From contig JACVTC010000460.1 of NCBI GenBank assembly GCA_016946835.1, positions 1 through 26,859 on the forward strand: a stretch of 26,859 nt of DNA, written 5' to 3'. Within the stretch, counting starts at the first letter, position 1. Each line of letters begins with the position of its first letter. The notes under the pieces are model-generated. The model made no database searches, had not been told where the DNA came from, and was given only the letters and a program-made list of their open reading frames with translations. Positions 1,426 through 26,859 of the stretch are shown piece by piece. Position numbers and translations under genes: made by a program. The stretch is from Neocallimastix lanati (nom. inval.). Lineage: Eukaryota; Neocallimastigomycota; Neocallimastigomycetes; Neocallimastigales; Neocallimastigaceae.

Positions 1426-4400
1426 ATTGTATATACGATGAAATAATTCATGAAATAGTAAACCTAGAATAAAATAAATTATATCATTAGAAAAGCTTTT
1501 TTTTTCGCTAATTTTAAATGAAAATAAATTGTTTGTAACTTCATTTTTAAAAAAAAAAATTTTTTTTTTTTTTTTTCAGTATAATTTTTATAATAAATTT
1601 TTATAATAAGCATGTATCAAGTTGGATATATAGGTTGAAATAACTCATGAAATAGTAAACCTAGAATAAAATATATTATATCATTAGAAATGTATTTGTT
1701 TGAGCTTACTTAAAATGAATATAAATTATTTTTAACTTCATTTTTAAAAAAAAAATTTTTTTTTTTTTTTTCAGTAAAATTTTTATAATAAATTTTTATA
1801 ATAATCATGAATCAAGTTGGAAATATAGGTTGAAATAACTCATGAAATAATAATCTTAAAATAAAAATAAATATATCATTAGAAAAGCATTTGTTTTCGC
1901 TTACTTAAAATGAAAATAAATTATTTGTAACTTCATTTTTAAAAAAAAAATTTTTTTTTTTTTTTTCAGTAAAATTTTTATAATAAATTTTTATAATAAT
2001 CATGAATCAAGTTGGAAATATGGGTTGAAATAACTCATTAAGTAGAAAACCTAGAATAAAATAAATATATCATTAGAAATGCATTTGTTTGCGTTTACTT
2101 AAAATGAAAATAAATTATTTGTAACTTCATTTTTAAAAAAAAATTTTTTTTTTTTTTTTTTAGTAAAATTTTTATAATAAATTTTTATAATAAGCATGGA
2201 TCAAGTTGGAAATATGGGTTGAAATAACTCATGAAATAATAATCTTAAAATAAAAATAAATATATCATTAGAAAAGCTTTTGTTTGCACTTACTTAAAAT
2301 GAAAATAAATTATTTATAACTTCATTTTTAAAAAAAAAATTTTTTTTTTTTTTTTCAGTAAAATTTTTATAATAAATTTTTATAATAAGCATGGATCAAG
2401 TTGGAAATATGGGTTGAAATAACTCATGAAGTAGTAAACCTAGAATAAAATATATTATATCATTAGAAAAGCATTTGTTTTCGCTTACTTAAAATGTAAA
2501 TAAATTATTTGTAACTTCATTTTTAAAAAAAAAAAATTTTTTTTATTTTTTAGTAAAATTTTTATAATAAATTTTTATAATAAGCATGAATCAAGTTGGA
2601 AATATTAGTTAAAATAACTCATGAAGTAGTATACCTATAATAAAATAAATTATATCATTAGAAAAGCATTTGTTTTCGCTTACTTAAAATGAATATTAAT
2701 TATTTGTAACTTCATTTTTAAAAAAAAAAAATTTATTTTATTTTTTACTAAAATTTTTACAATAAATTTTTATAATAAGCATGGATCAAGTTGGAAATAT
2801 AGGTTGAAATAACTCATGAAGTAGTAAACCTAGAATAAAATAAATTATATCATTAGAAAAGCATTTGTTTTCTCTTACTTAAAATGAATATTAATTATTT
2901 GTAACTTCATTTTTAAAAAAAAAAAATTTTTTTTATTTTTTACTAAAATTTTTATAATAAATTTTTATAATAATCATGAATCAAGTTAGAAATATGGGTT
3001 GAAATAATTCATGAAATAGTAAAAGTAGAATAAAATATAATATATCATTAGAAATGCATTTGTTTTCTCTTACTTAAAATGAAAATAAATTGTTTGTAAA
3101 ATCATTTTTAAAAAAAAAATTTTTTTTTTTTATTTTTCAGTAAAATTTTTATAATAAATTTTTATAATAAGCATGGATCAAGTTGGAAATATGGGTTGAA
3201 ATAACTCATGAAATAGTAAACTTAGAATAAAATAAATTATATCAATAGAAAAGCATTTGTTTTCTCTTACTTAAAATGAATATAAATTATTTGTAACTTC
3301 ATTTTTAATAAAAAAAATTTTTTTTTTTTTTTCAGTAAAATTTTTATAATAAATTTTTATAATAAGGATGGATCAAGTTGGAAATATGGGTTGAAATAAT
3401 TCATGAAATAGTAAACCTAGAATAAAATATATTACATCATTAGAAATACATTTATTTGCTCTTACTTAAAATGAAAATAAATTATTTGTAACTTCATTTT
3501 TAAAAAAATTTTTTTTTTTTTTTTTTTTCAGTAAAATTTTTATAATAAATTTTTATAATAAGCATGGATCAAGTTGGAAATATGGGTTGAAATAACTCAT
3601 GAAGTAGTAAACCTAGAATAAAATATATTATATCATTAGAAAAGCTTTTTTTTCGCTAATTTTAAATGAAAATAAATTATTTGTAACTTCATTTTTAAAA
3701 AAAAATTTTTTTTTTTTTTTTTCAGTATAATTTTTATAATAAATTTTTATAATAAGCATGGATCAAGTTGGATATATAGGTTGAAATAACTCATGAAATG
3801 GTAAACTTATAATAAAATATATTATATCATTAGAAATGCATTTGTTTGCACTTACTTAAAATGAAAATAAATTATTTGTAACTTCATTTTTAAAAAAAAA
3901 ATTTTTTTTTTATTTTTTAGTAAAATTTTTATAATAAATTTTTATAATAATCATGAATCAAGTTGGAAATATGGGTTGAAATAACTCATGAAATAATAAT
4001 CTTAAAATAAAAATAAATATATCATTAGAAAAGCATTTGTTTTCGCTTACTTAAAATGAATATAAATTATTTGAAACTTCATTTTTAAAAAAAAAATTTT
4101 TTTTTTATTTTTTACTAAAATTTTTATAATAAATTTTTATAATAATCATGAATCAAGTTAGAAATATGGGTTGAAATAACTCATGAAGTAGTAAACCTAG
4201 AATAAAATATATTATATCATTAGAAAAGCATTTGTTTTCGCTTACTTAAAATGAATATAAATTATTTGTAACTTCATTTTTAAAAAAAAAAAAAATTTTT
4301 TTTTTTTTTCAGTATAATTTTTATAATAAATTTTTATAATAATCATGAATCAAGTTGGAAATATGGATTGAAATAACTCATGAAATAATAATCTTAAAAT

Positions 4401-6140
4401 AAAAATAAATATATCATTAGAAAAGCATTTGTTTTCGCTTACTTAAAATGAATATAAATTATTTGTAACTTCATTTTTAAAAAAAAAATTTTTTTTTTAT
4501 TTTTTACTAAAATTTTTATAATAAATTTTTATAATAATCATGAATCAAGTTAGAAATATGGGTTGAAATAACTCATGAAGTAGTAAACCTAGAATAAAAT
4601 AAATTATATCATTAGAAAAGCATTTGTTTTCGCTTACTTAAAATGAATATAAATTATTTGTAACTTCATTTTTAAAAAAAAAAAAATTTTTTTTTTTTTT
4701 TCAGTATAATTTTTATAATAAATTTTTATAATAATCATGAATCAAGTTGGAAATATGGGTTGAAATAACTCATGAAATAATAATCTTAAAATAAAAATAA
4801 ATATATCATTAGAAAAGCATTTGTTTTCGCTTACTTAAAATGAATATAAATTATTTGTAACTTCATTTTTAAAAAAAAAAATTTTTTTTTTATTTTTTAC
4901 TAAAATTTTTATAATAAATTTTTATAATAATCATGAAACAAGTTGGAAATATGGGTTGAAATAACTCATGAAGTAGTAAACCTAGAATAAAATAAATTAT
5001 ATCATTAGAAAAGCATTTGTTTTCGCTTACTTAAAATGAATATAAATTATTTGTAACTTCATTTTTAAAAAAAAAAATTTTTTTTTTATTTTTTACTAAA
5101 ATTTTTATAATAAATTTTTATAATAATCATGAAACAAGTTGGAAATATGGGTTGAAATAACTCATGAAGTAGTAAACCTAGAATAAAATAAATTATATCA
5201 TTAGAAAAGCATTTGTTTTCTCTTACTTAAAATGTAAATAAATTATATGTAACTTCATTTTTAAAAAAAAAATTTTTTTTTTTTTTTCAGTAAAATTTTT
5301 ATAATAAATTTTTATAATAAAGATGGATCAAGTTGGAAATATGGGTTGAAATAACTCATGAAATAGTACTCTTAGAATAAAATATATTATATCATTAGAA
5401 AAGCACATATTTGCGCTTACTTAAAATGAAAATATATTATTTGTAACTTCATTTTTAAAAAAAATTTTTTTTTTTTTTTTTCAGTAAAATTTTTATAATA
5501 AATTTTTATAATAATCATGAATCAAGTTGGAAATATGGGTTGAAATAACTCATGAAGTAGTAAACCTATAATAAAATATATTATATCATTAGAAAAGCAT
5601 TTGTTTTCGCTTACTTAAAATGAATATAAATTATTTGTAACTTCATTTTTAAAAAAAAAATTTTTTTTTTATTTTTTACTAAAATTTTTATAATAAATTT
5701 TTATAATAATCATGAATCAAGTTAGAAATATGGGTTGAAATAATTCATGAAATAGTAAAAGTAGAATAAAATATAATATATCATTAGAAATGCATTTGTT
5801 TTCTCTTACTTAAAATGAAAATAAATTGTTTGTAAAATCATTTTTAAAAAAAAAATTTTTTTTTTTATTTTTCAGTAAAATTTTTATAATAATTTTTTTT
5901 AATAAGCATGGATCAAGTTGGATATATAGGTTGAAATAATTCATGAAGTTCTAAGCTTAGAATAAAATAAATTATATCATAAGAAAAGCATTTGTTTTCG
6001 CTAATTTTAAATGAATATAAATTATTTGTAACTTCATTTTTAAAAATAGATATTTTTTTTTTAATAAAATTTTTATAATAAGCATGAATCAAGTTGGATA
6101 TATAGGTTAAAATAATTCATGAAAAAATAAGTATATAATA
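1426..6140 (+). repeat. ~195-bp satellite array, about 24 monomers
   Basis: The landmark CAAGTTGG (or a one-base variant such as CAAGTTAG) recurs at about 1618, 1813, 2008, 2202, 2397, 2592, 2787, 2982, 3179, 3374, 3570, 3764, 3959, 4154, 4351, 4547, 4743, 4939, 5135, 5329, 5523, 5718, 5914 and 6090. The spacing is 194-197 bp except for the last, shortened unit (176 bp). Each monomer contains, in order, TTGAAATAACTCATGAA, an ATATCATTAGAAA segment, GCTTACTTAAAATGAA, TAACTTCATTTTTAA, then a run of about 7-13 A joined to a run of T, and finally two TTTTTATAATAA motifs. Length differences come mostly from the A/T runs. The array encodes nothing. Monomer length near a nucleosome repeat, a homogeneous core and decayed edges are typical of centromeric or heterochromatic satellites. 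That function is inference. Confidence 0.93.
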
Positions 6141-8855: not shown

Positions 8856-9457
8856 GTTAGGGTCAGAGATTTTTTAATTTTTATATTATTAAGTTATTAA
8901 TAATATAAATATTATAATATATATTAATGAATATATTCTACTATTTTAAATAAATATTAATAAAATATTATATAAGTGTATGTATATAATGTATATAAAT
9001 AAATTTAATTGTAAATATTAATGTATATATATTAATTATGTAAATAAATATTTTAATAAAAATATTAATCAATATATATTTATATACTATAAATAAATAT
9101 TATAATGTATATTAATGAATATTTATTAATAATACAAATTAATATTATAATATATATAAATTAATATTTAATAACAATATAAATAAATATTTATATATAT
9201 ATAAATGAATATTTAATAACAATATAAATAAATATTTTAATATATATATTAATGTATATATATTAATTTTTTAAATAAATATTTTTATATATCTATTAAT
9301 GAACATGTTTTAATAACATAAATAAATAATTCAATATATATATTAATGAATATTTATTAATAAAATAAATAAATAGGGTTATGAGTTCCATTTCGGATAA
9401 CGTGGCTTGTTAAAATTTAAATAAATAAAATAAAATTTAAAAATCTCTAACCCTAAT
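8856..9457. mobile_element. inverted-repeat-bounded segment (TTAGGGTYAGAGATTTTT ends)
   Basis: TTAGGGTCAGAGATTTTT at about 8857-8874 is matched in inverted orientation by AAAAATCTCTAACCCTAA at 9439-9456, with 17 of 18 bases paired. The roughly 600 bp between them is AT-rich, contains several 47-bp-family copies, and encodes nothing. It may be a non-autonomous DNA transposon or an inverted duplication. The telomere-like TTAGGG in the ends may be coincidental. Confidence 0.45.
9382..9430 (+). repeat. duplicate of the GTGGC element end
   Basis: GGTTATGAGTTCCATTTCGG followed by ATAACGTGGCTT closely matches 8420-8452, and the roughly 130 bp upstream matches too. This marks it as the right copy of a segmental duplication, with only one side of the foldback element retained. 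Confidence 0.65.
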
Positions 9458-10344: not shown

Positions 10345-10603
10345 ATATTCGAATTACTTGCATAAATCCCATTTTTTTTGTGATACTTTATTAAATATAT
10401 GTTTAAGTTTATACTGAAAAGAATTGAACTTTTTGCCGTTTCATCTTAAATTTTATTTTCTTCAATTGATATAGATGTATTAAATTCTTTTAGGGATGAT
10501 TATTTAAGCATTCATATTTAGGGGTTTTTATTTTTTTTAACATTTAAAATAATGAAAGATTTGCATTTATATAGTTTTATCATATATTATATTTAGGAAT
10601 TAT

Positions 10604-10604
<1 letters not shown>
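10345..10604. other. AT-rich spacer
   Basis: Slightly less biased sequence without an open frame of useful length. It contains GAATTGAACTTTTTGCCG and ATTTAGGGG-type words, but nothing assignable. Confidence 0.6.
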
Positions 10605-10636
<32 letters not shown>

Positions 10637-10648
10637 AAATATATTTTA

Positions 10649-10684
<36 letters not shown>
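10605..10684. repeat. paired T28 and T34 homopolymers
   Basis: Two long T runs (10605-10632 and 10651-10684) separated by AAATAAATATATTTTATC. The word AATAAATATATTTTA follows each run, so the pair looks like a tandem duplication of a unit ending in a T tract. Confidence 0.85.
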
Positions 10685-10688
<4 letters not shown>

Positions 10689-10694
10689 AATATA

Positions 10695-11488
10695 TTTTAA
10701 CTATTTAAATAAATATTTTGATATATATTTAAATGAATATATATTAATTAATTAAATAAATATTTTGTTATATATATAAATGTATATATAATAATTATTT
10801 AAATAAATATTTTGATATATATATTAATGAATTTATAATAACTAATTAAATAAATATTTTGATATATATTTAAATGTATATAATAATTATTTAAATAAAT
10901 ATTTTGATATATATATTAGTGAATATATAATAATTATATAAATAAATATTTTGATATATATATTAGTGAATATATAATAATTAATTAAATAAATATTTTG
11001 ATATATATATTAGTGAATATATAATAAATAATTAAATAAATATTTTGATATATATTTAAATGTATATAATAATTATTTAAATAAATATTTTGATATTTAT
11101 TTAAATGTATATAATAATTATTTAAATAAATATTTTGATATATATATTAGTGAATATATAATAAATAATTAAATAAATATTTTGATATATATATTAGTGA
11201 ATATATAATAAATAATTGAATAAATAATTTGATATATATATTAGTGAATATATAATAAATAATTAAATAAATATTTTGATATATATATTAATGAAAATAT
11301 AATAATTAATTAAATAAATATTTTGATATATATATAAATGTATATATATTAATTAATTAAATAAATATTTTGATATATATTTAAATGAATATATATTAAT
11401 TAAATAAATAAATATTTTGATATATATATTAATGAATATATATTAATTAATTAAATAAATATTTTGATATATATATTAATGAATATTT
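10695..11488 (+). repeat. 47-bp tandem array, forward orientation, about 17 copies
   Basis: AAATAAATATTTTG recurs, ending at about 10720, 10767, 10814, 10861, 10906, 10953 and 11000 and onward, at 45-48 bp steps. The rest of each unit is ATATATATTA(A/G)TGAATATATA followed by ATAATTAATT. Two sub-variants, TTAGTGAATATATAATAA and TTTAAATGTATATAATAATT, are interspersed. The array runs directly into the AAAAT block. Inverted copies form the array at 16560-17125. Confidence 0.9.
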
Positions 11489-12480
11489 AAATAAAGAATA
11501 AAATAAAGATAAAATAAAATAAAGAATAAAATAAAGATAAAATATAATAAAGAGAAAAAAAATAAAATAAAAAAAATAAAATAAAATAAAGAATAAAATA
11601 AAGAATAAAATAAAAAATAAAATAAAATAAAGAATAAAATAAAAATAAAGAATAAAATAAAAATAAAGAATAAAATAAATCAAAATAACATAAAATAAAA
11701 TAAAGAATAAAATAAAGAATAAAATAAAATAAAAAATAAAATAAAATAAAGAATAAAATAAATCAAACCAACATAAAATAAAATAAAGAATAAAATAAAG
11801 AATAAAATAAAGAATAAAATAAAAATAAAATAAAATAAAATAAAATAAAAAAGAAATAAAATAAAATAAAATAAAGAATAAAAAGAAATAAAATAAAAAT
11901 AAAATAAAATAAAATAAAATAAAAATAAAATAAAATAAAATAAAAAATAAAATAAAAAAGAAATAAAAAAAAAATAAAGAATAAAATAAAATAAAAAATT
12001 AAAATAAAATAAAACATAAAGAATAAAATAAAATAAAATAAAGAATAAAAAAGAAATAAAATAAAATAAAGAATAAAAAAGAAATAAAATAAAATAAAGA
12101 ATAAAATAAATCAAAATAAAGAATAAAATAAAATAAAAAATTAAAATAAATCAAAATAAAGAATTGAATGAAATAAAAAATTAAAATAAAATAAAATAAA
12201 GAATTGAATAAAATAAAATAAATAATGAAATATAAAATAAAATAAAACATAAAAAATAAATAAAAAATAAAATAAAAAAAATAAAATAAAACATAAAGAA
12301 TAAAATAAAATAAAACATAAAGAATAAAATAAAATAAAACATAAAGAATAAAATAAAATAAAGAATAAAATAAAATAAAACATAAAGAATAAAATAAAAT
12401 AAAGAATAAAATAAAATAAAACATAAAGAATAAAATAAAATAAAACATAAAGAATAAAATAAAATAAAATAAAACATAAA

Positions 12481-18830: not shown

Positions 18831-20898
18831 TAAATAAAATATATATATAATATTATTAAAATTCACATTTTTAATTAAAATATAATTTTTAAATAAAATT
18901 TAAATTTATATTTTAATAATTAATTATATATTATATTGTGAAGTATATATAATTATATTGATAATAAATATTATTTGCAATATATTAAATTTTAAATAAA
19001 ATATTACAATTTTTAAATAATAATTTACTTAATCTCAATGATAGTATATAAATACAGCTATTATTTTATTAATAAAAATTTAAATTATATTATAAATGAT
19101 ATGAACAATTAAATTTTAAAATTATTAAAAATATTTATTTTATTTGTTTAATTATTAGTAAAAAAGAATAATAAGAATATTACATTATACATATGGAAAA
19201 ATTTATAATATTAAAATTTAATATAGAAGATAAAAAAAAAAATTTTTTTTATATATTTATATAAAATAAATAAAAATATTTAATTTTTTTTTTTTAATTT
19301 AAAATTTTGTTATTTTTTGTTTTAATGTATAAATTAAAAAAAAAAAATGAAAGTTTATTTTAAAATATAATGTATATATATAAAAAATTTTTTTTTATAT
19401 TCAGGTATATATAAAAATTGAAATTTTTTATTTTTAATTAGTTCAGAATTATTTTATTTTTACTATTAATGTATAAAAAAATAAACATAAAAATAATTAT
19501 TTATATTTTAAATTAATAATAATAAATTTAAAAATTTATAAAAAAATAATTTTATGTAAATAATGTATATTATTAAATTATGTTTTAAGTGGTAAAATGA
19601 TATAAATTTATATTAATATATAAATATAATTATTTTTTTAGAATATAAAATTTAAATGATTTTTCAATTTAAAATTAAATACTTTATATAAAAATTTCAA
19701 TTAATATATAATATTAATTTAAATAAATTTAAAATTTAATAGTATAAGATTACTTCTATTTAAATTTAATATTAAATATTATTATATTATTATTAAAATA
19801 TTTTATTTATTATAGTATATTTTTAGTAATTAGTATTAACGTTTGAATATAATAATCTTGATAGATTACTATAAATATTAAAATATTTCGTTTTTAAAAA
19901 ATATAATTATTCGTATAAAATAATATATATATTATTTTTATTATTTATTTTATTTATTTTCTAAATAAAAAGAAAATAAATTGCAATAAAAAATATTTAA
20001 AAGAATTAATAATTGAAATATTTTTTTATAAAGGAAAGTATTTATTAAAAAAATTAATAAAAAAAAAAATATTAATATAATTAAATTAATTTAAAAATTC
20101 AATTATCGAATATTTTTAGTTTTATAATTAATAAAGAAATATATTTAATATATTTTAAATTGATTTATTAAAATTAGTATTTTCATTTTAATTTATATTT
20201 TATCAATAATAATTTCAATTATTTTAAATTTCAAATTATAAATTTAGAAAATTGTATATATATATTAAATTATTATTATAATGGAAAGGTATAAAATTAT
20301 TTATATTATTACAGTTTATTAGATTTTAAAAATATATAATTTTTGATTAATATAATAAGTTTTTATTTATATAAAATACTTTCAAGTATAAAATTAAGAA
20401 AATTTATTTTCAATTATGAACAAAATATTAATATTTAATTTAATAAATAAAAATAAGATTTATTTAAAATTTATTGTTAAATTTAAGGCTAATAATTTTT
20501 ATTTTATAATTAAAATGATTAATATTTTGTTATTAAAATAAAAACAAATAACTTTTAAGATTATTTAATATTTAAAATTGAAATAAAATTATTTAAATAT
20601 AAATTAATTTAAAAAATAAAGAAAATTTAGTTTAAATGAAATTTATAAATTTGTTAAAAATTTTCCAATATAAGAGTAAAACGGATTCATTGAAAAAATA
20701 AAATTAGTCTAACTAATTTAAAAAATTAAATTATTTTATAAGAAAGAAATAAAAATAAAAAATAAAGATAAATTTAAATTATTATTTATTTAAAAAGTAT
20801 GAATAAAAAAGAAAATAATATAAATTATAAAGGAATTTTATTTGTTTAATTAAAGAGATAAAAAGAACAAAAAAAAAGAAATAAAAAATCTTTTTAAA
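18831..20898. other. 2-kb AT-rich intergenic region
   Basis: Nothing recognisable: no sustained open frame, no array, no structured RNA signature. Isolated GC-bearing words such as GAGTAAAACGGATTCATTG (20674-20692) stand out only against the background. Confidence 0.7.
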
Positions 20899-20908
20899 AT
20901 CACGTGAT
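20899..20908. promoter_or_regulatory. ATCACGTGAT palindrome (E-box / CDEI-like)
   Basis: A perfect 10-bp palindrome containing CACGTG, two bases left of the telomere-like tract. In yeasts, bHLH proteins of the Cbf1 type bind RTCACRTG sites at promoters and centromeres. Whether a homologue acts here is unknown. It stands out because G/C is so scarce around it. Confidence 0.35.
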
Positions 20909-20910
20909 AA

Positions 20911-20932
20911 GGGGTTAGGGGTTAGGGTTAGG
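20911..20932 (+). repeat. telomere-like tract (TTAGGGG / TTAGGG)
   Basis: Reads as GGGGTTA, GGGGTTA, GGGTTA, GG: about three and a half telomere-type units mixing seven- and six-base forms. It is too short to be a functional chromosome end and is interstitial here. With the G-rich strand as the + strand, a telomere with this polarity would lie to the right. The same tract type recurs at 20965, 23625 and 24546, always followed by TTTTAAA. Confidence 0.85.
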
Positions 20933-21003
20933 TTTTAAACGTTATAATTTTATTTAATAAAATAGGGTTAGGTTTTAAACGTTATAATTTTATTTAATAA
21001 AAT
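20924..21003 (+). repeat. 40-bp tandem duplication starting in telomere repeat
   Basis: Two perfect 40-bp copies (20924-20963 and 20964-21003). Each begins AGGGTTAGG, continues with TTTTAAACGTTATAATTTTA and ends TTTAATAAAAT. The second copy leads into the 3' flank of the minus-strand gene. Because each copy starts with a telomeric seed, the shorter one can be read as a strongly 5'-truncated insertion of the same element end, or as a simple slippage duplication. Confidence 0.9.
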
Positions 21004-21359
21004 TAATCAAAATAGTTAATACATTATTAATGTATATATAATTACATGGAATCATGACTACATGACTTTGAGTAATTTAATACAAATTTTTAATAAGAAG
21101 AAAAAATTCAGTAAAATAGTAAAGTAAATATTTAAAGAGTTTAAGATTTTAAGGAAGAAAAATTATTCTTTTTTAATAAAGTAAATGATTAATTAAAGTA
21201 ATTCTAATTAAGAATTTTTTTTTAATAGTTATCTAAAAGAATATAAAGTTTTTATAATCTAGTAGAATATTTTAAAATAAAATTTATAAAGAAATTAAAT
21301 TTTTAGTTTGTTCGTAAAGTAAGTATATTTAATTAAGACTGAAATCGTATGAAATATAT
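21004..21359 (-). other. 3' flank of the minus-strand gene
   Basis: About 350 bp of AT-rich, non-coding DNA downstream of the stop codon, reaching the telomere-seeded 40-bp repeat. No second ORF, and no reverse transcriptase or endonuclease fragment, can be read in it. AATAAA on the minus strand overlaps the stop codon, but in this composition it is not informative as a polyadenylation signal. Confidence 0.6.
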
Positions 21360-23549
21360 TTATTCATTGATATATTTCATAGATTCAATAATATCCTCCG
21401 AACTATAATCCATAGGTTTTAATGGATTAATAGTTGTATTCAGGATGTTAGGGGAATTGGATATTATAGTATCACTATACATATCCATCCCTGCTTCCTG
21501 ATAGTGCTCAATTGGCACTGTAGGAGTTAACGTTGAGGAGATAATTGAATCATTATCATCCTCTGTGCATTGGTCGTCATCCTCAAAGAGTTCAGACGTA
21601 CCTTTGAATTCTGGGGATTCAAGAGGGCCACTTGGACTAGCAGCCTTAAAAACAGCAAAGCCCTTTGATGGGCTAATTACCCTTTCCTTTAGCGCTAGGG
21701 CAAAGGCAGAAATAGCTTCTTTACTAGAGCGACGGGCAGCATTGGCTACTTTTGGGTTCGAGCCAGACGAGTTAGCTGGGGTACCTTTGGGGGTAGCTGG
21801 AGCATTATCGGGGGCACAGCCCGAGGGAGGAGCAGCGAAGTTGTTACCTGAGGTAGAGACTTCTGCATCAGGAAGTACAGTAGGTGTGGGCGTAGGAATA
21901 TTAAATTTGGTAAATTTAATATTTTGGATAACATTAGAAAAGAAGTCCTTAACATAATCAGGACTTCTTTCTCTATTAATAGTTTCAGATATTCTTCGGT
22001 AGCAAGCTTTTTCTATCCTAAGAATATCTTCACCATTTGCTGTTGAGGCATTTTCAACAGCTACGGGGTTAAAGTTTTCGAGAACTTTAAATGAGTTTTC
22101 AAAAACTTTAAGAATATCAGTAATCATTGGTTTGAATTTTTTGAGAACTGTAAGTTCACAAATGTCCTTACCAATGAACGAGACATTTCTGATGTAGAAA
22201 TGTCTAATACCAAGATTACTAAGGCATTTTTTAACAATCCAGATGGGTTGTCTTTGTATGCCTTGAATATATAAAAGGTCAAGGTCTTCCTTTCGGATGA
22301 TCTTGGGTTGTTTCAGAATGAGATTCAGGACACTTTCCTGAATTATGGGGAGACCATCTTCCTGGCTCTTGATTCGTCGAAGTTGGAGAGGAAGATGGTC
22401 GGCATTCTTTTCAAGGGAATCTGTAATTTCTTTACATTTTCCCTTTTTTTCTTCTATCATTTTTTTAATCCTCTCCTTTTTCTCTAATATTTCAAGAGAA
22501 AGGCGAGAGGGTGCGACTTCAGAATTATTAGGTAGCACTGGGTTAAGTGCTACTGGTTGATTTTGGATCTTAGAAATTTTGGATAAAAGTTTACTTTTAT
22601 CCTTTTTCCAAGATTCTTGGAACAAATTAAACGCATTAGTAAGATTGGATATTTCAATCTTACTATTATTATACAGATTTTTTAAATGAGCGTTCTCAGT
22701 TCTAAGACGATTAAATTCATCTAAATTGAACTGATTAAGCTCTTCGGTTGGCGAGTCCTGGTGCCTTGGGAGATATCTCTCAATGGTAGGACTGCGTTCT
22801 TCTTCCAGAGGATTATTTTTTCTTTTACCGAGAGTTTCGGTAACTGGCTTCTTGAATAATCCTTCTTGAGATATTCTTTCTTCCGATTTCCTTAAAGTAG
22901 GAAAAACCGGCGTCAAGACGGGTTCTTCAGTAATACTATGATTACTGATATTTTTTTCTTCAGGTTCTTCCATCTCAGCATCTTGGGTCGATACTGCAAT
23001 GGATGGGGTAGTAGCGGTAGCAGCAGTAATAGGACTAGTAGCAGGAATAAGTCCAGCAAATAGAAGGGTTTGATTATCTATAATCTCTTCTTTGTCTTCT
23101 AATTCTGGTCGGTAGTAGTCGAATTCGCAACAGAAATGATTTCTTAACTTAAGCACGTCTAAGGGTCTCGTATGCCCTGTTAACGGCTTTTTTATATCTG
23201 TTTTTAATTCATCTTTTGGATTAGGACTCTTAAAGGGAAGAGTGATGAATTTCTTCCCATTCTTGAAAGTGATTTCCGTTTTGTTTTCATTAAGAGAGAC
23301 GATCCCATGATCATAAAGATCAATGAGGTACGCCTTAAGACTGGTAAAGGGGCAACCATTATTACACTTCTTCTTCTTTTTGTTGATGCAGATGAGGCGG
23401 GTTTCACTCGTCTTAGTGAATGTTCCCCCACATCTTCTGCATCGGATCGGAGTAGGACGTCCGTCCGTGCTTTGGGTTTTACCACTAAGAATAAAGGAAT
23501 AGTGGTAAACTCCGAAACTTCTAAAAACTTCTTCTCCTTTAGATGGCAT
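21360..23549 (-). CDS. ORF1/gag-like protein: Cys-rich motif, coiled coil, RRM-like segment
   Basis: An intronless 729-residue protein. The ATG (23547-23549) is the first after an in-frame stop at 23586-23588 and follows a run of ten A on the coding strand. It ends in TAA. Residues 37-66 hold a Cys cluster (C37, C40, C54, C62, C66; CxxC-x13-C-x7-C-x3-C) followed by FTSLKAYLIDLYDHG, a likely zinc-binding module. Residues 165-270 are disordered. Residues 272-328 (LDEFNRLRTENAHLKNL and following) and 349-380 are coiled-coil-like. Residues 425-485 fit a beta-alpha-beta-beta-alpha RRM-like fold, with LLYIQGI, PIWIVKKCLSNLGI, FYIRNVSFIGKD, CELTVL and FKPMITDILKVF. Residues 551-650 are Ala/Ser/Pro-rich and 652-668 acidic. 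Coiled coil plus RRM is the layout of many non-LTR retrotransposon ORF1 proteins, which bind RNA and form particles, so that is the best guess. No CCHC knuckle, endonuclease or reverse transcriptase is present. GC is roughly 40% by eye, far above the flanks, and codon third positions are mixed. Alternatives are a lineage-specific orphan or a domesticated ORF1. The CDS is firm; the function is tentative. Confidence 0.85.
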   Translation of the reverse strand: MPSKGEEVFRSFGVYHYSFILSGKTQSTDGRPTPIRCRRCGGTFTKTSETRLICINKKKKKCNNGCPFTSLKAYLIDLYDHGIVSLNENKTEITFKNGKKFITLPFKSPNPKDELKTDIKKPLTGHTRPLDVLKLRNHFCCEFDYYRPELEDKEEIIDNQTLLFAGLIPATSPITAATATTPSIAVSTQDAEMEEPEEKNISNHSITEEPVLTPVFPTLRKSEERISQEGLFKKPVTETLGKRKNNPLEEERSPTIERYLPRHQDSPTEELNQFNLDEFNRLRTENAHLKNLYNNSKIEISNLTNAFNLFQESWKKDKSKLLSKISKIQNQPVALNPVLPNNSEVAPSRLSLEILEKKERIKKMIEEKKGKCKEITDSLEKNADHLPLQLRRIKSQEDGLPIIQESVLNLILKQPKIIRKEDLDLLYIQGIQRQPIWIVKKCLSNLGIRHFYIRNVSFIGKDICELTVLKKFKPMITDILKVFENSFKVLENFNPVAVENASTANGEDILRIEKACYRRISETINRERSPDYVKDFFSNVIQNIKFTKFNIPTPTPTVLPDAEVSTSGNNFAAPPSGCAPDNAPATPKGTPANSSGSNPKVANAARRSSKEAISAFALALKERVISPSKGFAVFKAASPSGPLESPEFKGTSELFEDDDQCTEDDNDSIISSTLTPTVPIEHYQEAGMDMYSDTIISNSPNILNTTINPLKPMDYSSEDIIESMKYINE

Positions 23550-23623
23550 TTTTTTTTTTAGAAAATAATTATAAGAGATTAAAATTTATAAGAATATTTA
23601 ATTATTAAGAATATTTTTATTTT
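23550..23623 (-). promoter_or_regulatory. short leader between gene and telomere-like seed
   Basis: Only 74 bp separate the start codon from the TTAGGG seed on its right. The leader is AT-rich, with an A10 run directly before the ATG and one in-frame stop (23586-23588). If the segment is a retroelement, this is its 5' UTR and any promoter must be internal or supplied by the neighbouring unit. No promoter motif is identifiable. Confidence 0.4.
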
Positions 23624-24545
23624 AGGGTTAGGTTTTAAATTCTTTTATTTATTTAAGATTTACAAAGTATTACATGTATTTGATAAATATAATAATTACA
23701 AGAATAAAATATAATAATATAAAATTATTAAAGTATTTACTAAATATAACTATTATAAGAATTAATAAGTAATTTAAAATATTAAATATTATTACTAAGT
23801 TAAAATTAATAAAGATTTAACTAACTAATAAAATTATTTAATATTAAAATATTTAAAGTTTGATAAAAAATATAAATTTAAAGTTATTAAAATTTTGATC
23901 AAAAATAAATTTAAAGTTATTAATGTTTTGATCAAAAGTAAATTAAAGTATTTAAAGTTTTGATTAAAAAGTAAAACGGATATACTAAATATGTCCATTA
24001 TCTAAAAAAGGAAAATATTCTAATTAAACTATATCTAAGAGAAAATTTATGAAAATTAACAAACTTAATTCATATACTGAAATCCCATGAGGAATTTCAA
24101 TATCTTGACTATCTCTAAAAGGAAATATTAAAAAAATAACTATTATTAAGTATTAATAACTATAAGAAAATATAACTTATTTAAGAAATTAGAATATATA
24201 ATTATAAAAGTAAATAATTATATAAGATAATAATCTAAGTATTATATAAGATATTAATCTAAGTATATAACTATAAAAAGTAATAATAAAAATATATAAT
24301 TATATAATTATTAAAATAAATAATTATATAAATGAATAAATATATAATTATAAATGAAATATAATTATATAATAAAATAAAAAATATAATTATTAAAACA
24401 AATAATTATATTAGGTAATAATAAAAATATATAATTATAAATAAATATTATATAAGTGAATAAAATATAATAAAATATATAATTATTATAAGTAAATAAT
24501 TATATAAGTGAATAAAATATAATAATTATATAATTATTATAAGTA
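23624..24545 (-). repeat. telomere-seeded ~929-bp unit, copy 1
   Basis: It starts with AGGGTTAGG, then TTTTAAATTCTTTTATTTAT, and extends to the next seed at 24546. Landmarks are GTATTACATGTATTTGATAA, three TTTTGATCAAAA / TTTTGATTAAAA motifs, GTAAAACGGATATACTAAAT, and an imperfect palindrome, TGAAATCCCATGAGGAATTT. The right third decays into (A/T)-only microsatellite. No ORF on either strand. The unit is about 97% identical by eye to copy 2 over its first ~500 bp. Confidence 0.88.
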
Positions 24546-25460
24546 GGGGTTAGGGGTTAGGTTTTAAATTCTTTTATTTATTTAAGATTTACAAAGTATT
24601 ACATGTATTTGATAAATATAATAATTACAAGAATAAAATATAATAATATAAAAATTATTTAAAGTATTTACTAAATATAACTATTATAAGAATTAATAAG
24701 TAATTTGAAATATTAAATATTATACTAAGTTAAAATTAATAAAGATTTAACTAACTAATAAAATTATTTAATATTAAAATATTTAAAGTTTGATAAAAAA
24801 TATAAATTTAAAGTTATTAAAATTTTGATCAAAAATAAATTTAAAGTTATTAAAGTTTTGATCAAAAGTAAATTAAAGTATTTAAAATTTTGATTAAAAA
24901 GTAAAACGGATATACTAAATATGTCCATTATCTAAAAAGGAAAATATTCTAATTAACTATATCTAAGAGAAAATTTATGAAAATTTAACTAACTTAAAAT
25001 TCGTATACTGAAATCCCATGAGGAATTTCAATATCTTGACTATCTCTAAAAGGAAATATTAAAATAACTATTATTAAGTATTAATATCTATAAGTAAATA
25101 TATCTAAAATAGATAATTATTATAAGTAAATAATTATATATGATAATAATCTAAGTATATATAAGATATTAATCTAAGTATATAACTATAAAAAGTAATA
25201 ATAAAAATATATAATTATATAATTATTAAAATAAATAATTATATAAATGAATAAAATATAATTATAAATGAAATATAATTATATAATAAATAAAAAATAA
25301 AAAATATAATTATTAAAATAAATAATTATATTAGATAATAATAAAAAATATATAATTATAAGAAAATAATTATATAAGTGAATAAAATATAATAAAATAT
25401 ATAATTATTATAAGCAAATAATTAATAAGTGAATAAAAATATATAATTATTATAAGCAAA
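24546..25460 (-). repeat. telomere-seeded ~929-bp unit, copy 2
   Basis: It begins with a longer seed (GGGGTTAGGGGTTAGG, 24546-24561) followed by the same TTTTAAATTC sequence as copy 1, shifted by 929 bp. The body differs from copy 1 only by scattered substitutions and small indels until the microsatellite part (from about 25090), where alignment becomes loose. The right end near 25460 is approximate, because no further telomeric seed follows. Non-coding. Confidence 0.85.
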
Positions 25461-26208
25461 TAATTATATTAGTGAAAAAAAAAAATATATAATTATAAAA
25501 GATATATAAGTATATAATATAATAATAAAAATATATAATTATTAAAAGAAATAATTATATAAATAAATAATAAAATATATAATTATAAAAAGTATATAAT
25601 TATATAAGTAAGTAAAAAGTATATAACTATTAAAAGAAATAATTATATAAGATAATGAAAAAAATATATAATTATTAAAAAAATTATATTAAATAAAAGT
25701 ATATAATTATAAAAGATATATAATTATAAGTAAATAAAAGTATAATAATTATAAAGATATATAATTATATAAGTAAATAAAAGTATATAATTATTTTAAG
25801 CAAATAATTATATAAGATAATGATAAAGAAAGTATATAATTATTTAAAATAAATAATTATATAAGTAAATAATAAAAATATATAATTATAAAGGTATATA
25901 ATTATATAAGATAATAAAAGTATATAATTATTAAAAGAAATAATTATATAAGAAAAAAGAGAAGTATATATATTATTTAAAGAAAATAATTATATAAGAA
26001 ATTAAAAAATATATAATATAAAAGATATATAATTATATAATAAAATAAAATAAAAGTATATAATTATTAAAAGAAATAATTATATAAGATAATAAAAAAT
26101 GTATAATTACTTAAAGTAAATAATTATACAAGAAAGAAAAGAAGTATATATAATTATAAAAGAAATAATTATATAAGATAATAATAAAAAGTATATATTA
26201 TAAAAATA
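25461..26208. repeat. degenerate TATAATTATA microsatellite
   Basis: Irregular repeats of AATATATAATTAT(T/A)AAAAG and AAATAATTATATAAG at variable spacing, continuing the tail composition of the 929-bp units. Self-complementary TATAATTATA words are dense. No coding potential. Confidence 0.7.
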
Positions 26209-26298
26209 TAAATTATATAAAATGATAAAAGTTTATATAAAATTATATAAAATGATAAAAATTTATATAAAATTATATAAAATGATAAAAGTTTATAT
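26209..26298 (+). repeat. 30-bp tandem repeat, three copies
   Basis: AATGATAAAA recurs at 26221, 26251 and 26281, exactly 30 bp apart, in units reading AATGATAAAAGTTTATATAA then AATTATATAA. The middle copy has ATTTATATAA in place of GTTTATATAA. Confidence 0.85.
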
Positions 26299-26673
26299 TA
26301 TTATCTAAAGATAATAACTATAATAAAATAAGAGTTAATAATTAAAAATAAAGGGTAAATAAAGTAAAGTAATTATTAACCAAAGTAAATAAAATAAATA
26401 AAAAAAGGTAAGGTTGAAAGAATAATAAAGGTTATAAAAATATAATTATTATAATGAAAAAAAATAAAAGGTATTATATAAATATTTAAATTATTATGAA
26501 GACATAATAAAATAAGATATATATATATAGAGATAATTTATAAAAGATAATTTATAAAAGATAAAAATAAAAAATAAAATAAAAAAAGAATAAAAGAAAA
26601 TAAAAATAAAATAATAATTATTCTTATGTATTTATATATAATTAAATAAAAAGATTAAAAAAAAATAAATCTT
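26299..26673. other. AT-rich spacer
   Basis: A-rich non-coding sequence with runs of AAATAAAAT and AGATAATTTATAAA (the latter duplicated near 26531-26560). No feature recognised. Confidence 0.6.
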
Positions 26674-26749
26674 TTAATAATTTATATATAAAGGGAACAC
26701 AAGAAAAATTTATAATAATTTATATATAAAGGGAACACAAGAAAAATTT
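26674..26749 (+). repeat. 38-bp tandem duplication
   Basis: GGGAACACAAGAAAAATTT occurs twice, with its GGG at 26693 and 26731, exactly 38 bp apart. Each copy is preceded by TAATTTATATATAAA. The rest of the window to 26859 is AT-rich without features. Confidence 0.85.
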
Positions 26750-26859
26750 TTAATATAAATTTTTTAAATATAAATATTAAAGAAATTATAATAAAAATTA
26801 TAGAATTATATTAAAAGTAAAATAAAAGGATAACTATTGTAAAAGTTAAAAGGGTAAAT

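Follow-up and report, generated by a model that had tools for sequence, protein, structure and literature searches.

Among the telomeric retrotransposons of animals, TRAS/SART elements carry a reverse transcriptase (RT) of the R1 clade, TAHRE has the gene order gag-pol, the HeT-A/TAHRE system is marked by a gag protein that travels to telomeres and by a promoter within the 3' untranslated region, and rotifers have Athena/Penelope-like terminal elements, which lack an endonuclease and join the telomeric G-strand end with their 3' side inward. In fungi, MoTeR1 and MoTeR2 of Magnaporthe and the FoTeRs of Fusarium are described as CRE-clade elements that target TTAGGG repeats and encode a restriction enzyme-like (REL) endonuclease after a C-terminal CCHC motif (PMC7367193, PMC8381367, PMC12857005). 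The telomeric tracts of these arrays measure between half a repeat and more than 20 repeats (PMC7367193, PMC8381367, PMC12857005). Here, we report a computational analysis of a complete contig of the fungus Neocallimastix lanati (nom. inval.), JACVTC010000460.1 (C402; 26,859 bases; hereafter, the window), in which units of two families of non-long terminal repeat (non-LTR) retrotransposons, A and B, are stacked between short telomeric tracts, or seeds. One of these units contains a gene for a 729-amino acid (aa) gag/ORF1-like protein and lacks an RT. Copies were sought in the own genome of the fungus (199 Mb, 762 contigs), which is very rich in AT. Membership of the host in the anaerobic gut fungi (Neocallimastigomycota) agrees with the abundance of fungal dockerin-type CBM_10 domains, a hallmark of these fungi: of 1,440 initial candidates, 150 were scored and listed, and each of these exceeds the cut-off. 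The stacked region is very probably the proximal piece of a chromosome-end array built by telomere-targeted non-LTR retrotransposons.

Stacked units and their telomeric junctions

The sequence GGTTAGGTTTTAAA occurs four times in the window, at 20926, 20966, 23626 and 24555, exclusively on the + strand, and was not encountered in 100 dinucleotide shuffles. These occurrences mark four seeds of a single polarity, each followed by TTTTAAA, where an earlier note, made from the letters of this DNA, had placed them. From the proximal to the distal side, the order is seed 1 (20911..20932, +; a C-strand tract parsed as 23 nucleotides (nt)), which joins the 3' end of a 40-bp stub; the stub itself, a severely 5'-truncated family-B 3' end of 30 nt, that is, the 40-bp unit minus its seed (20933..20962, -); seed 2 (20963..20972, +); the short, gag-only family-B unit of 2,649 bp, flanked by seeds on both sides (20973..23621, -); seed 3 (23622..23632, +); a 5'-truncated family-A copy consisting of 3' untranslated region (3'UTR) only (23633..24543, -); seed 4 (24544..24561, +); and a longer family-A copy, of which the contig edge leaves just the 3' part (24562..26859, -). 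Seeds 2 to 4 were delimited by the GGTTAGGTTTTAAA scan and by reading the junctions, and the stub by Tandem Repeats Finder (TRF), which reports a repeat of period 40 with 2 copies at 100%. The 40-bp unit and the ~2.6-kb unit carrying the only gene, both proposed in the note, were thus recovered. Of the two ~929-bp units that it also proposed, one exists, at 23633-24561 including its seed, and is the only unit of this period; the second has no seed at ~25460, runs off the contig and is the end of the longer family-A element.

The assignment of the two distal units to family A is based on comparison with other contigs. The truncated copy, the sense strand of which ends in GAATTTAAAA, is 98% identical to the family-A 3'-end query and also matches the 3'UTR of the RT-bearing family-A copy on C497. 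The longer copy is 97.9% identical to the same 3'UTR (window 24518-26859 against C497 15640-13270). Window positions 24437-25231 are 99.4% identical to C175, and a second stretch of C175 matches at 98.3% up to window position 26859, which corresponds to C175:68553; a family-A RT domain lies at C175:71797-73101, ~3.2 kb past this point, the interval being mostly unread. On C175, the 3' ends follow one another in the same order as in the window, and the junction pair of the stub recurs on C175 and C589. Window positions 19466-22861 are 99.97% identical to both these contigs; the shared block would be due either to chromosome ends having recently exchanged sequence or to haplotypes that were not collapsed.

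In both families, the 3' end TTTAAAA is joined to CCTAACC in one fixed phase. Across the genome, TTTAAAACCTAACC has 183 occurrences (101 forward and 82 reverse), whereas the pattern read backwards, which served as the control, has 2. When the family-B 3' end with seven telomeric bases was used as the query, 40 of the 43 matches reached the last base, CCTAACC included, and the other three stopped within CCTAA, missing the last two or three bases (best candidates only were scored, so that 43 is a lower bound). All 42 matches to the family-A 3' end with nine telomeric bases, obtained from the best 40 of 886 candidates, extend at least through CCTAACC. These queries are a fairer test than the 93 distinct contexts (last 16-18 bases, at most two mismatches) collected from DNA that was largely fetched via the junction itself. 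Among the latter, 75 continue exactly as TTTAAAACCTAACC; of the other 18, three get as far as CCTA despite a small change, a single one continues as an A-run, and the remaining 14, in which TTTAAA is missing from its expected position, resemble chance matches in AT-rich sequence. The 3' motif is followed by TTTAAA or a close variant in 79 contexts, with four A in 77, three in one and an A-run in one, so that there is no poly(A) tail at the telomeric junction.

Using a pattern that requires CCTAA, 103 junction sites were read singly, of which 92 were attributable to family A or B, with telomeric tracts of 8-31 nt (median 11). These collapse to 68 distinct junctions (8-31 nt, median 12) with one 3' phase and variable 5' ends. 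The 11 sites for which no family assignment was possible were excluded; several resemble AT-rich chance matches and some resemble decayed copies. The arrays combine the fixed 3' end, variable 5' truncation and head-to-tail order of long interspersed nuclear elements (LINEs) with the short TTAGGG tracts, here of 8-31 nt, that split MoTeR, FoTeR and CRE arrays.

The orientation of the copies relates the arrays to chromosome ends. Runs of CCCTAA of at least five and a half repeats are present on 26 contigs, near the end wherever the extent of the contig is known. On 16 of these, namely those with family 3' ends among the first 100 places listed, all 52 listed copies have one polarity: their sense strand runs with the C-strand of the telomere, and the 3' end points away from it. 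C505 ends with a family-B copy that is truncated inside the gag gene and directly capped by ~375 bases of TTAGGG/TTAGGGG, and the same stacking under a terminal array is found on C666 and C57. The terminal arrays that were read span about 230-375 bases. The host genome further encodes two telomerase RNA-binding domain (RBD) fragments that score over the cut-off, one with internal stops. With TTAGGG arrays at its contig ends, this genome does not share the lack of telomerase repeats that accompanies HeT-A/TAHRE.

Several seeds have other neighbors. On C57, a Ty3/gypsy-like integrase fragment, recognized by eye (10366-12425), starts right at the innermost seed of the telomeric stack, and the seeds at C1:3920271 and C165:24692 abut GC-richer DNA that resembles genes, an arrangement that would be expected if a short telomeric tract plus an element had served to heal a broken end. 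Subtelomeric satellites are found behind seeds, too: a 195-bp satellite occupies much of the left side of the window (1439-6062), and on C191 (8527-9683 and 32863-34023) a 195-bp satellite array starts directly at a telomeric seed, with CCTAACCC followed by ATGCTTATT. A perfect interstitial telomere run lies at C269:29997-30029, on a contig that also has a terminal run. Elsewhere in the window, positions 9435-9456 (+) contain a decayed-looking TTTAAAAATCTCTAACCCTAA of polarity opposite to the array, possibly a relic 3' end. Rfam and tRNA scans produced no matches.

Two sister families and their endonuclease

The two families are sisters, sharing the terminal TTTAAAA, and their RT domains are 57% identical. 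Family A, as read on C497 and C191, consists of an open reading frame of 807 codons (ORF1), a second frame (ORF2; ~1,480 codons) that overlaps it, and an AT-rich 3'UTR of ~4.2 kb; the C497 element ends in GAATTTAAAA followed by CCTAACCC. The ORF2 frame has no Met at its start, and we infer from this arrangement that it is expressed by frameshift. Family-A RTs are also present on C175, C297, C507, C1, C177 and, in part, C126. Family B, read on C191 and C299, has an RT ORF of ~1,200 aa, a spacer of 1.4 kb, a gag-like ORF of 729 or 740 aa and a 3'UTR of 0.39 kb, and ends in A[C/A]GTTTAAAA followed by CCTAACCC. Additional RT-gag pairs of this family occur at a second place on C191 and on C126 and C175, and an RT with one stop is found on C1. 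Both RTs are of the LINE type, with matches to Pfam RVT_1 at E values of 2.7e-34 (A) and 8.1e-31 (B), and the best PDB matches of the family-B RT are LINE-1 ORF2p (E value 1.3e-20). Among the 100 RT matches listed, from the best 97 of 1,523 candidates, identity to family A is 38-100% for 38 and 32-34% for 62. Abundant RTs of ~1335 aa were considered as LINE helpers and rejected, the eight loci read being Ty3/gypsy-like by translation.

A second recurrent 5' end was observed within the family-A 3'UTR, at the short tandem repeat TTTCTCCTAATGTATAATCC, where units start behind different seeds (C57 7441, C126 38757, C750 6892, C497 19332 and C666 984923); this recurrence suggests a short non-coding transcript.

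Upstream of the RT, both families contain the endonuclease motifs N..G, E, VY.PP, GDFN, WDH and (S/T)DH in canonical order. Their order is that of an ordinary LINE of the same genome, the endonuclease of which is recognized by Pfam, and their spacing is close to that found there. In family A, the full open ORF2 frame includes all these motifs, whereas a start at the first Met would leave half of the endonuclease missing. Judging by the motifs, the endonuclease of A and B is a putative apurinic/apyrimidinic endonuclease (APE)-like enzyme. Inspection by eye of the A and B translations against the published consensus revealed no REL run of RHD/N and R/KPD after the C-terminal CCHC (CPIC..H...C).

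Whether this endonuclease acts at the telomere bears on the most serious alternative, in which the RT primes on eroded chromosome ends and the endonuclease is not used there. HeT-A or Athena elements are thought to use eroded chromosome ends as primers, and the brevity of the seeds across the 68 distinct junctions, compared with the terminal arrays, fits nearly bare ends. However, endonuclease motifs are kept in both sister families, the fixed phase would need an additional cause, such as pairing of the RNA end, and interior copies exist. We consider endonuclease-independent extension possible, if less likely than not; the short tracts favor nearly bare ends, and the conserved motifs favor nicking.

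The gag-only unit

The 729-aa gene (21360..23549, -), delineated by its ORF, by matches in the own genome and by homology to family-A ORF1, is the only gene-like ORF of the window, with a GC content of 38% compared with 10% for the rest. It is followed by a 3'UTR (20973..21359, -) that was recognized by genome matches to its 3' end and ends on the sense strand in ACGTTTAAAA. A 72-nt leader (23550..23621, -) precedes the gene, and its 5' end coincides with the recurrent start site described below. The protein comprises an N-terminal Cys motif, a low-complexity, helical-looking middle part and a conserved domain in common with family-A ORF1 (BLASTP E value 3e-33), and has 75 matches (high-scoring segment pairs) in the own genome. 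It gave nothing over the Pfam cut-off and no PDB match with a useful E value; among viral contigs, five pattern matches were obtained, none of which was confirmed as a relative; and single-sequence fold prediction for the conserved domain, with a mean predicted local distance difference test (pLDDT) score of 42, assigned no fold. Comparison of the 729-aa and 740-aa types yields a ratio of nonsynonymous to synonymous substitution rates (dN/dS) of 0.34, which indicates purifying selection on the gag gene. The earlier note had described an ORF1-like layout of the gene product. The homology to family-A ORF1 agrees with this, but the position in family B does not: gag lies 5' of the RT gene in family A and 3' of it in family B.

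Sixteen gag starts were read, of which 10 begin directly at a seed and 6 continue into the family-B spacer; the starts on C481 and C197 were considered as gag-only units and rejected because both continue into the spacer. The ten seed-borne starts represent five distinct junctions (the window; C126/C269/C347/C497/C666; C177; C239; C296/C750), which fall within ~4 nt of one another, 52-72 nt before the ATG. Such recurrence is better explained by a transcript start than by random truncation. As with HeT-A and TAHRE, a gag-only telomeric unit exists next to RT-bearing relatives. Lacking an RT ORF of its own, the unit probably borrows the RT in trans from relatives elsewhere in the genome.

The coherence of family B as an RT-spacer-gag element could be questioned, in that an RT element and a gag-only element might simply be neighbors that were duplicated together. 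Indeed, when C299 and C191 are compared in 250-bp blocks, identity is 98-100% throughout the RT module and spacer and falls to 68-93% in the gag module; the switch is located in the ~100 nt upstream of the ATG, the region in which the gag-only unit has its start. Yet, five RT-gag loci keep a constant order and a spacing of 2.78-2.81 kb with two gag types, and in both loci that were read RT and gag follow each other without an intervening seed. Moreover, in a copy at C297 23101, truncation within the spacer, immediately at a seed, has left gag in place, suggesting that spacer and gag moved as one RNA. Duplicated neighbors are therefore an unlikely explanation, and we treat family B as a single element with the order pol-gag.

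Mechanism and comparison with known telomeric elements

Overall, telomere-targeted retrotransposition is, with high confidence, the best explanation of the array, and it is the reading that the earlier note had proposed. What the note expected to accompany it was found: further copies with TTTAAAA joined to CCTAACCC throughout the genome, RT ORFs in the same arrays near chromosome ends, and truncated copies that adjoin terminal TTAGGG arrays (C505, C666). Passive build-up, in which recombination and the healing of eroding telomeres would collect ordinary subtelomeric fragments without any targeted transposition, is very unlikely: large blocks are near-identical between the window, C175 and C589, the same junctions appear on several contigs (hence 92 reduce to 68) and subtelomeric satellites adjoin seeds as well, but the distinct junctions combine one 3' phase, seen independently in the 3'-end queries, with variable 5' ends, open RT/endonuclease ORFs lie within the same arrays, gag evolves at a dN/dS of 0.34, and the gag-only 5' end recurs in five distinct junctions.

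Several observations weigh against targeted transposition to chromosome ends, or limit it. At least six copies related to the two families are located over 150 kb away from either end of their contigs; those at C1:3776083, C24:1214379, C168:171614, C190:638844 and C212:1307288 all have TTTAAAA joined to CCTAACC, and the more decayed one at C35:262344 has one A fewer, with TTTAAA joined to CCTAACCC. Targeting may not be purely terminal, or the interior copies may be relics of old ends; internal MoTeR relics have been described (PMC8381367). The earlier note had singled out copies away from telomeric repeats with no fixed junction as contrary evidence: interior copies exist, yet those read keep the CCTAACC junction. 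Many copies and junctions are common to several contigs, as in the 99.97% block, and copy counts are not event counts because sharing of blocks by recombination or uncollapsed haplotigs inflates them. The telomeric endonucleases of A and B had no match in Pfam or PDB searches, hhalign gave a probability of 3.4% for the telomeric against the ordinary LINE endonuclease, and MAFFT brings just the VY.P and GDFN motifs into register. The true 5' ends of RT-bearing A and B copies were not found, satellites being located there. Finally, the RNA start site, the RNA 3' end and mobilization in trans are all inferred from DNA.

With these reservations, targeted insertion could proceed as follows. The element RNA would end in, or pair with, CCUAACC, and a TTAGGG 3' end, either free or nicked by the APE-like endonuclease, would prime cDNA synthesis. 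Before another insertion takes place, telomerase would extend the new 5' end with repeats. The RNA of the gag-only unit would be started just upstream of the gag gene and mobilized in trans by the A or B RT. Extending this scheme, we tentatively propose a fungal counterpart of HeT-A that works alongside telomerase. The pol-gag telomeric LINE would have an internal promoter for a gag-only RNA ending in CCUAACC, Gag would bring this RNA to chromosome ends, where its tail would pair with the TTAGGG overhang like a telomerase template, and the sister RT would copy it. Short ends would be lengthened in 2.65-kb steps, each re-capped by telomerase, and RT and gag modules would be exchanged.

Elements with APE-like motifs are stacked here on the chromosome ends of what is most likely an early-diverging fungal lineage, one that retains telomerase-type repeats, and the gag-only unit with its recurrent start repeats outside animals the division of labor known from Drosophila. 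The inverted gene order, pol before gag, hints at a way in which LINE modules could be permuted and recombined by head-to-tail telomeric arrays. The sharing of a single chromosome end between a retroelement and telomerase becomes open to experiment in this system, as does a possible role of short telomeric RNA tails in fixing the phase of insertion.

Compared with MoTeRs and FoTeRs, the array has in common the fungal host, TTAGGG targets, head-to-tail order, telomeric tracts between units, 5' truncation, an RT-less partner (MoTeR2) and internal relics. Unlike those elements, families A and B have APE-like motifs before the RT and no visible REL run after the CCHC; the unique part of MoTeR2 is described as lacking an obvious function, whereas the RT-less unit here carries a conserved gag-like gene. 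The ORF order of family B is reversed relative to TRAS/SART and to the gag-pol order of TAHRE, and, unlike HeT-A/TAHRE/TART, neither family has oligo(A). The inward 3' end is shared with Athena, but A and B keep APE-like motifs, and the family-B RT is closest in PDB to LINE-1 ORF2.

TRAS/SART elements of Bombyx resemble families A and B in being telomere-specific, in having an RT and an endonuclease, the latter putative in A and B, and in the precise 3' junction with telomeric repeats (PMC7265360), although SART1 joins a variable-length poly(A) to AGG of the TTAGG repeats (PMC7265360), whereas here TTTAAAA joins CCTAACC. HeT-A, TAHRE and TART of Drosophila likewise comprise a gag-only unit beside RT-bearing relatives, with long UTRs and head-to-tail arrays (PMC5537684), and their poly(A)/3' ends face the centromere, just as the A and B 3' ends point away from the telomere (PMC5537684). 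Drosophila telomeres, however, are made of these elements instead of telomerase repeats (PMC5537684), whereas TTAGGG arrays and telomerase-like exons are present here. Among the papers listed by searches of the open-license PMC literature, none concerned telomeric elements in gut fungi or reversed ORF order in LINEs, which is not proof of absence. Families A and B are a known kind of telomeric element that differs from its described counterparts by the APE-like motifs, the lack of poly(A), the pol-gag order of family B and the gag-only unit with a recurrent 5' end.

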